Source: Balneolaceae bacterium
GTDB taxonomy: Bacteria > Bacteroidota > Rhodothermia > Balneolales > Balneolaceae
DNA length: 64,000 bases
Direction: 5' to 3'
Assembly (NCBI GenBank): GCA_007134085.1
Contig: SLLL01000009.1
Location: 34,667-98,666 of the forward strand
Shown: positions 52,422-54,275 of the stretch, piece by piece
Layout: each line of letters begins with the position of its first letter
How positions within the stretch are numbered: position 1 is the stretch's first letter
The notes under the pieces: generated by a model
The model's database searches: none
Told to the model about the DNA's origin: nothing
The model's input: only the letters and a program-made list of their open reading frames with translations
Translations under genes and position numbers: made by a program

Positions 52422-54275
52422 ATGGCAAATAATTACCGGGCACTTACCCGTACATACCGGCCCCAGACTTTTGAGGATGTTGTTTCGCAGGAGCATGTGA
52501 GCAGCACCCTGAAGAATGCCATAAAACAGAACCGCCTTTCTCATGCTTACATGTTTTGCGGCCCGCGTGGTGTCGGTAAAACAACGATGGCGAGGGTATT
52601 GGCACGAGCCATAAATAATATCGACGATACCGTTGATGGGGAATCGCTAAGCCAGACACTGAATGTAGTTGAGATTGATGCTGCATCAAACAATAAGGTT
52701 GAAGATGTTCATCACTTGCGGGAAATTGTGCGCGTTCCGCCTCAAAGTGGCAGATACAAAATTTTTATTATTGATGAGGTGCACATGCTCAGTAAGCAGG
52801 CGTTTAATGCCCTGCTGAAAACACTGGAAGAGCCGCCTCCGCACGCTATTTTTATCTTTGCCACTACCGAGCCCCATAAAGTATTGCCCACCATTTTATC
52901 GAGGGTTCAAAGGTTCGATTTTAAGCGAATCAGTGTTGATGAAATTACATCACGGCTGAGGGATATTTGCGCAAAAGAGGGCATCACCATTGATGAAGAG
53001 TCGCTGCATACCATTGCCAGAAAGGCAGACGGCGCACTGCGCGATGCACTTGGGCTGATGGATCAGGCAATTGCCTTCTGCGGGCTGAACATTCAGTACA
53101 ACGAACTTACCCAGGCACTAAATGTAGTAGGCAACGACGAACTGTTTGAATTTACCAATGCCGTTGCAAGCCGCAACGCAAGAGCAGGGCTTCTGCTTAT
53201 CGACAGGCTTCTGAAAGACGGCGTTGATATTCAGGAGTTTCTGGTCTCACTCACGCTACATCTTCGAAATATTTATGTGGCACTGCAGGGTGAAAATATG
53301 CATCTGGTTGAAGCTACCGATGATACAAAACAACGGTATGCAGAAATTTCCGCTCACTTTTCGGAAGATGATCTGCTCAGAATGCTTCACCTTGTAAGTG
53401 AGGCACAGCTAAACATGAGGGAAGTGCAGCAGCCACGGGTTTACTTTGAAATCCTTATGCTGAAGCTGGTGCACATGAGCAGAGTAAAGCAGCTGGGTGA
53501 GCTGCTTACAGCCATGGACGACCTAAAAAAAAAAGGAATTGATCCCGCAGTCACCTCCGTAACGTTTGATGAGAAAAAGCCGATAACAGATTCCATTCCA
53601 GCCTCAAAGCCGGTGGAGAGCAAGGTTGAGGAACCTCCCAAAGAGGCCGCGAAAAATCAGAATTCTGAGCCTTCATCTAACGAATCTTTACCTGCGGTTG
53701 ATCAGGCATCTGAAACAGAAAAAAATACCTCAGATCAACAAAAAGCAGATCTCGCCGAAGATTCTGTTGATGTTGACGGCCTTGAAGATCTTCTGATGGG
53801 CAAACCCTATCTGAGGCCAATCAACCAGCCTCACAGGCTAAACGGAAAAGCTCCGGAACCTGCTTCTGACGCACCGGTGAAGAAAGCTGAACCTGCTTCC
53901 GCTAAACTAAACGGAATCGAAGATATAGAAGAGAAGTGGGAGCTGTTTCTTGATCTGGCAAATAAAAATTTTTCCCAAACGCTTTATATCATCATACGCG
54001 ATGTTCAGCTTAAAGGCCTTAAAGGAACAGAGCTTACTGTATCTGTAAATTCGCCCTTTGCGGTTACAGCCGTTGAAGAGCACAAAATGCAGCTCTCAAC
54101 GCTAATGAAAGAGGTGATTGGTGTGCACATCCGTTTCAAATGTGTGTGTGAACGCCAAAAAACAAACATCGAAGAATCGTTAAGCCCTTACGACCGGTTC
54201 AGGCAGCTTCAAAAGAAAGATGCGCACCTGAAAACCATTGTTGAACTGTTTGGTGCAGAACTGGAATACACGTAA
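52422..54275 (+). CDS. dnaX: DNA polymerase III subunit tau (with putative slippage-derived gamma form)
   Basis: YRPQTFEDVVSQEHV, GPRGVGKTTMARVLARA, NKVEDVHHLREIV, LLKTLEEPPPHAIFIFATTE. Confidence 0.97.
   Translation: MANNYRALTRTYRPQTFEDVVSQEHVSSTLKNAIKQNRLSHAYMFCGPRGVGKTTMARVLARAINNIDDTVDGESLSQTLNVVEIDAASNNKVEDVHHLREIVRVPPQSGRYKIFIIDEVHMLSKQAFNALLKTLEEPPPHAIFIFATTEPHKVLPTILSRVQRFDFKRISVDEITSRLRDICAKEGITIDEESLHTIARKADGALRDALGLMDQAIAFCGLNIQYNELTQALNVVGNDELFEFTNAVASRNARAGLLLIDRLLKDGVDIQEFLVSLTLHLRNIYVALQGENMHLVEATDDTKQRYAEISAHFSEDDLLRMLHLVSEAQLNMREVQQPRVYFEILMLKLVHMSRVKQLGELLTAMDDLKKKGIDPAVTSVTFDEKKPITDSIPASKPVESKVEEPPKEAAKNQNSEPSSNESLPAVDQASETEKNTSDQQKADLAEDSVDVDGLEDLLMGKPYLRPINQPHRLNGKAPEPASDAPVKKAEPASAKLNGIEDIEEKWELFLDLANKNFSQTLYIIIRDVQLKGLKGTELTVSVNSPFAVTAVEEHKMQLSTLMKEVIGVHIRFKCVCERQKTNIEESLSPYDRFRQLQKKDAHLKTIVELFGAELEYT

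Follow-up and report, generated by a model that had tools for sequence, protein, structure and literature searches.

An adenine run past domain III of Balneolaceae dnaX as a probable transcriptional slippage site for tau-like and gamma-like products

The 64,000-nucleotide stretch of a Balneolaceae bacterium analysed here (GenBank assembly GCA_007134085.1, contig SLLL01000009.1), hereafter the window, carries dnaX as a single open reading frame (ORF) with ten consecutive adenines (A10) shortly after domain III. We consider it probable, from comparison of sequences, that this run has been selected as a site of Thermus-type transcriptional slippage, giving both tau-like and gamma-like products. 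RNA polymerase would add or drop A's on the run, and what follows it in the mRNA would come in each of the three frames. Those with 10 (or 10 ± 3n) A's would encode full-length tau of 617 residues, and the others would run into nearby stops and end as gamma-like proteins, about 373 or 379 residues long, that retain the clamp-loader domains I-III and lack the C-terminal region of tau. The first-pass annotation of this DNA had proposed that this dnaX makes both forms, and the proposal is now strongly supported, because the run survives codon and amino acid changes across 19 genera and the two alternative frames both remain short; in relatives, the roles of the frames are even swapped.

Conservation of the run and closure of the alternative frames

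The product of the ORF matches the Pfam models AAA+, DNAX_ATPase_lid and DNA_pol3_gamma3 and lies above the cut-off of NCBIfam TIGR02397 (dnaX_nterm), and thus has the AAA+ ATPase, lid and gamma/tau domain III by which DnaX membership was judged. The end of domain III (residue 362) precedes the run by six residues, so that the run lies in the coding strand after the ATPase and clamp-loader domains, as in the Thermus type, where at least nine A's are expected. The local sequence (53520-53540) is gacct-A10-ggaatt, read in the genomic frame as CTA AAA AAA AAA GGA ATT, and the run and its two alternative readings, one ending at 373 residues and the other after eight codons at TAA, are exactly as first described. 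It is the sole run of at least nine A's on either strand of the whole window. Such runs occur about once per 50 kb genome-wide, dozens in total, and about five A9 matches are expected in a shuffled window. A single A10 in a window is therefore unremarkable when taken alone, and it is the conservation that exceeds chance.

DnaX was sampled from 59 relatives first and then from every available genome of the family, which gave 87 family loci. Whether the run and the short frames are conserved in relatives, a check that the first-pass annotation had itself suggested, is answered clearly: A9 or A10 is present at the identical nucleotide in 79 of these loci, from 19 genera, and both alternative frames close early. 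One of these carriers is the cultured species Rhodohalobacter sulfatireducens (L031), with A9. From the codon usage of these genes and the residues encoded there, at least nine A's would be expected at the site in 7.2 of the 79, and with one genome per genus the product of the probabilities for the run is 1.6e-20. The codon ahead of the run always ends in A (TTA 55, GTA 15, CTA 5, ATA 2, GCA 2; n = 79), yet TTA and CTA together make up just 20% of leucine codons. The fourth and last codon at the run is AAC in 49 genes, AAG in 19 and AAA in 11, which means that the encoded residue varies between lysine and asparagine while the A's stay. Only lengths of 9 or 10 occur, with no A7 or A8 at this site among the family members. 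Other places in the same family genes that encode xKK[KN] contain A9 in 2 of 38 cases. The genus g25 departs from the common position, with A10 at nucleotide 1211.

These patterns bear on a protein-level explanation, in which a lysine-rich motif is kept as a basic patch past domain III and the A-run is its by-product. Two lysines are indeed present at the site in every case. However, the third residue alternates between lysine and asparagine while the A's persist, the flanking codons are constrained to a final A, and a lysine pair kept by AAG codons without the run is seen in 0 of the 79 family members. The run also occurs in other phases in other lineages, with the peptides EKKT, QKKN and KKKT, and is missing in Rhodothermia outside Balneolales (0 of 20). 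Neither the placement of the stops nor the role-swapped genes presented below would be explained by a basic patch. We regard this explanation as very improbable, and a protein-level reason for KKK was rejected on account of the K/N switching and the other phases.

In the single-ORF genes of the family, a stop is reached after 2.45 codons on average in the −1 frame, where shuffling of the codons downstream gives 9.2 ± 1.0, and after 6.35 in the +1 frame, where it gives 31.6 ± 3.0. With one genome per genus the means are 2.5 against 10.1 codons for the −1 frame and 7.3 against 33.8 for the +1 frame, and none of 5000 shuffles gives a mean as low as that observed, for either frame. Near stops in both other frames, beyond chance, are a further mark of the Thermus type.

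A neutral or phase-variable tract without any programmed product also has to be considered, as tracts of nine or ten A's are mutable and one genus of the family (g5, see below) has lost the run. Such a tract is hardly to be reconciled with a position fixed over 19 genera, a length of 9 or 10 only, the rarity of A9 in the rest of the genes (0.02 per kb) and stops in both frames beyond chance, and we give this explanation very little credence.

Table 1. Coordinates of dnaX, the A10 run and associated features in the window
Feature	Position	Strand	Basis or remark
dnaX (tau-like clamp-loader subunit), single ORF of 617 codons	52422..54275	+	ORF list; Pfam; NCBIfam
Gamma/tau domain III (PF12169), residues 231-362	53112..53507	+	Pfam match
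8-bp hairpin aagcagct-gggtg-agctgctt, 17 nt 5' of the run	53487..53507	+	present in sequence; probably incidental
Putative slippery A10, from base 3 of codon 368 through codon 371	53525..53534	+	sequence; conserved in family
−1 frame tail AGG AAT TGA (the A of AGG is the run's final one); 373-residue gamma-like end KKKRN predicted	53535..53542	+	sequence
+1 frame tail GAA TTG ATC CCG CAG TCA CCT CCG TAA (starts after G 53535); 379-residue gamma-like end predicted	53535..53562	+	sequence
Linker and tau C-terminal region, predicted to be produced only by genomic-frame reading of the run	53543..54275	+	ORF; homologous region in −1 frame in role-swapped relatives

Apart from the run, the zinc module with four cysteines known from E. 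coli DnaX is missing in the window protein, where the aligned region (52600-52700), ARAINNIDDTVDGESLSQTLNVVEIDAAS, contains zero cysteines. This module is a variable feature of DnaX and was not used here to judge membership.

Relatives in which the roles of the frames are swapped

In 36 genes of relatives the roles of the frames are swapped, that is, the genomic frame stops 0-8 codons past the run, and it is the −1 frame that encodes the tau C-terminal region. Two of these genes, from two species, belong to the Balneolaceae genus g32, four come from a contig collection and ten from a phylum sample, and 20 are found among the 30 genomes of the family f24. The loci taken from the phylum sample were chosen partly for short frames and therefore give no unbiased frequency of swapping (the peptide pattern AMDDLKKK, mentioned below, was not used there). 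In both genomes of g32 (L210, L211), A10 is present at the same nucleotide as in the window with the roles swapped; a dnaX of this kind would be annotated as a truncated gene of 372 residues. In f24, the 20 swapped genes stand beside 10 single-ORF genes, and both types are mixed within two genera.

The shifted-frame tails that were examined are homologous to tau C-termini. The last 124 codons of the g32 gene, read in the −1 frame, have 40 synonymous and 7 nonsynonymous differences, and the tau C-terminal domain in this frame is under purifying selection. It is unlikely that the swapped genes stem from assembly error, as they turn up repeatedly, with conserved tau C-termini, in many genomes, including some that consist of one or a few contigs. 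Tau is needed at the replication fork, and frame shifting must therefore occur in the organisms with swapped genes. The +1 frame is closed in these genes as well (4.6 against 13.8 codons; in f24, 2.35 against 20.6). On a FastTree tree of DnaX, a quick tree whose counts are approximate, the swapped or unswapped state needs at least 17 changes compared to 30-35 when shuffled.

Transcriptional slippage and ribosomal frameshifting

The same truncation could be produced by programmed −1 ribosomal frameshifting as in E. coli, in which the transcript is uniform and gamma is made by slippage of the ribosome on the tandem A_AAA_AAA heptamers. E. coli and its relatives use this mechanism (PMC3711429, PMC5009743), the in-frame heptamer is present in all run-bearing family members, and, as the main point in its favour, tau lies in the −1 frame in all 36 swapped genes. 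However, the minimum of nine A's is left unexplained by it, and the same is true for the closure of the +1 frame in single-ORF and swapped genes alike. Slippage is favoured by the first point because A7 or A8 would suffice for ribosomal frameshifting, and by the second because slipped transcripts yield all frames and −1 frameshifting just one. The last codon is AAC in 49 of the 79 genes, which is not the site favoured in E. coli (PMC5009743), and the preferred heptamer A_AAA_AAG is absent in the window.

Stimulators similar to those of E. coli, a downstream stem-loop or a Shine-Dalgarno (SD) sequence, were searched for and not found. A stem-loop downstream of the run is not conserved across genera (mean z −0.3 to 0.1), and the downstream region of the window folds no better than its shuffles (z 0.35). 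Mean folding z-scores of windows around the run range from −0.6 to 0.4 across genera, with strong individual folds scattered. SD-like tetramers are present upstream in 34 of 79 family genes, where 28.8 ± 3.9 are expected, and none is present upstream of the run in the window.

The hairpin upstream of the run, which had been pointed out in the first-pass annotation, is present 17 nucleotides upstream as described, with folding z-scores of −1.2 to −2.0 compared to shuffles, but a role in the signal is not upheld. It is complete in the window only, mostly retained in L002 and L003, and lost in the congeners L004 and L005 and beyond; averaged over genera, the structure z is about 0. It was rejected as a part of the signal for this lack of conservation, and the hairpin is probably incidental.

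Some observations weigh against slippage as the explanation of the run. The A_AAA_AAA heptamers are in frame throughout, which makes ribosomal frameshifting possible, and the direction of shift is −1 in all 36 swapped genes, as −1 ribosomal frameshifting would give; under slippage, one added A must then be the commonest error. Furthermore, the genus g5 (7 loci: L134, L198, L199, L203-L206) has lost the run at its ancestral place, which indicates that the device is dispensable in some lineages. A9 is found 75-130 nucleotides further downstream in 3 of the 7 members of g5, whose genomes measure 1.4-2.7 Mb. With both sides taken together, we consider ribosomal frameshifting unlikely as the source of the gamma-like product, and transcriptional slippage on the A10 run the probable one.

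Occurrence in the phylum and relation to known systems

Outside the family, the search of the contig collection gave 72 dnaX loci, nearly all from Bacteroidota, and 39 of these contain a run of at least nine A's within nucleotides 1030-1260 of the coding sequence, near the end of domain III, a count to be read with the fact that one of the six peptide patterns used (AMDDLKKK) may slightly favour run-bearing genes. No such run is present elsewhere in the gene; the density of A9 outside the region in the same genes is the 0.02 per kb given above. Across the phylum the run is found in all three phases. In dnaX of Saprospiraceae, for example, the sequence is GAA AAA AAA ACN CCT GAC CTA AG, with one stop per frame. 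All 30 genomes of f24 (L253-L282) have A9 or A10 in dnaX. In the families of Balneolales other than Balneolaceae, the run is mostly lost or located elsewhere. On the same approximate tree, presence or absence of the run needs at least 15 changes, compared to 60-70 when shuffled. The early closure of both frames recurs in 34 Bacteroidota genes (1.4 and 3.8 codons, compared to 20.7 and 29.0 after shuffling) and is likewise seen in f24.

Among the 33 loci of the contig collection without the run, 26 (Prevotellaceae, Bacteroidaceae and one other Bacteroidales) have a GGGC-N3-5-GCCC hairpin at nucleotides 1110-1122 of the dnaX coding sequence, past domain III where other genes have the run. The motif is present nowhere else in these genes, and 0.64 are expected after codon shuffling. 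The glycine codon of the hairpin is GGG, although GGG represents only 12% of the glycine codons in these genes, and the codon opposite, in the right arm, varies between R, S, G, C, K and Q, yet the pairing is kept. No slippery site was recognised upstream of the hairpin. The loci with the hairpin include L045, L046, L055, L057, L061, L063, L077, L081 and L090. It is possible, though we put it forward as a tentative idea, that dnaX throughout the phylum has, where domain III ends, an old switch between gamma and tau with a replaceable signal, either a poly-A run with a flipping tau frame or, in Prevotellaceae and Bacteroidaceae, the GGGC-loop-GCCC hairpin as an undescribed other signal for the same truncation.

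The closest known system is dnaX of Thermus thermophilus, in which transcriptional slippage takes place on A9 (Larsen et al. 2000, as cited in PMC1088944 and PMC5009743). The window gene shares with it the single tau ORF, at least nine A's, close stops in both other frames and a truncated gamma-like product. Slippage has been demonstrated in Thermus, whereas for the window dnaX we infer slippage, its efficiency and the stability of both products from sequence. Two-ORF dnaX genes with poly-A, 17 in number and including Chlorobium and Chloroherpeton, have been described, with transcriptional realignment as the proposed mechanism (Antonov et al. 2013, PMC3711429). Poly-A does the same job there, and their arrangement, with the genomic frame ending at the run and the tau C-terminus in the −1 frame, is found in our 36 relatives, two of them in Balneolaceae. 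The window gene has the reverse arrangement, with tau in the genomic frame, and the detection of Antonov et al. addressed two-ORF genes and not poly-A dnaX with one ORF such as this.

E. coli dnaX, which uses a −1 frameshift with A_AAA_AAG, an SD sequence and a stem-loop, makes the same pair of products from one gene as predicted for the window. In contrast, the window gene has no SD sequence and no stem-loop, its A-run is longer and its +1 frame is closed too. The predicted gamma of the window ends just past domain III at 373 residues, whereas that of E. coli ends at about residue 431. In Caulobacter, gamma is generated by proteolysis of tau (PMC5009743); the outcome is the same and a recoding site is unnecessary there.

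Slippage that yields a shorter product is hard to spot comparatively, since no new coding sequence arises (Baranov et al., PMC1088944). In the part of the open-licence literature covered, no treatment was found of poly-A dnaX with a single ORF, for this family or for the phylum, which is weak evidence of absence. The class of mechanism is known; what is new is the conservation evidence for single-ORF genes, the breadth of occurrence, the repeated swapping and the GC hairpin of Prevotellaceae and Bacteroidaceae.

An A-run that is kept through amino acid change, together with early stops in both frames, offers a comparative test for slippage, and the test is strongly positive here. Swapped dnaX genes are likely to be labelled as truncated or broken by annotation pipelines. 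The distribution of the run suggests that much of this large phylum has retained a short clamp-loader subunit, and the swapped genes suggest that the tau frame has flipped many times, as would be expected were the two forms produced at similar levels. These observations bear on the general importance of gamma, which has long been disputed in E. coli.
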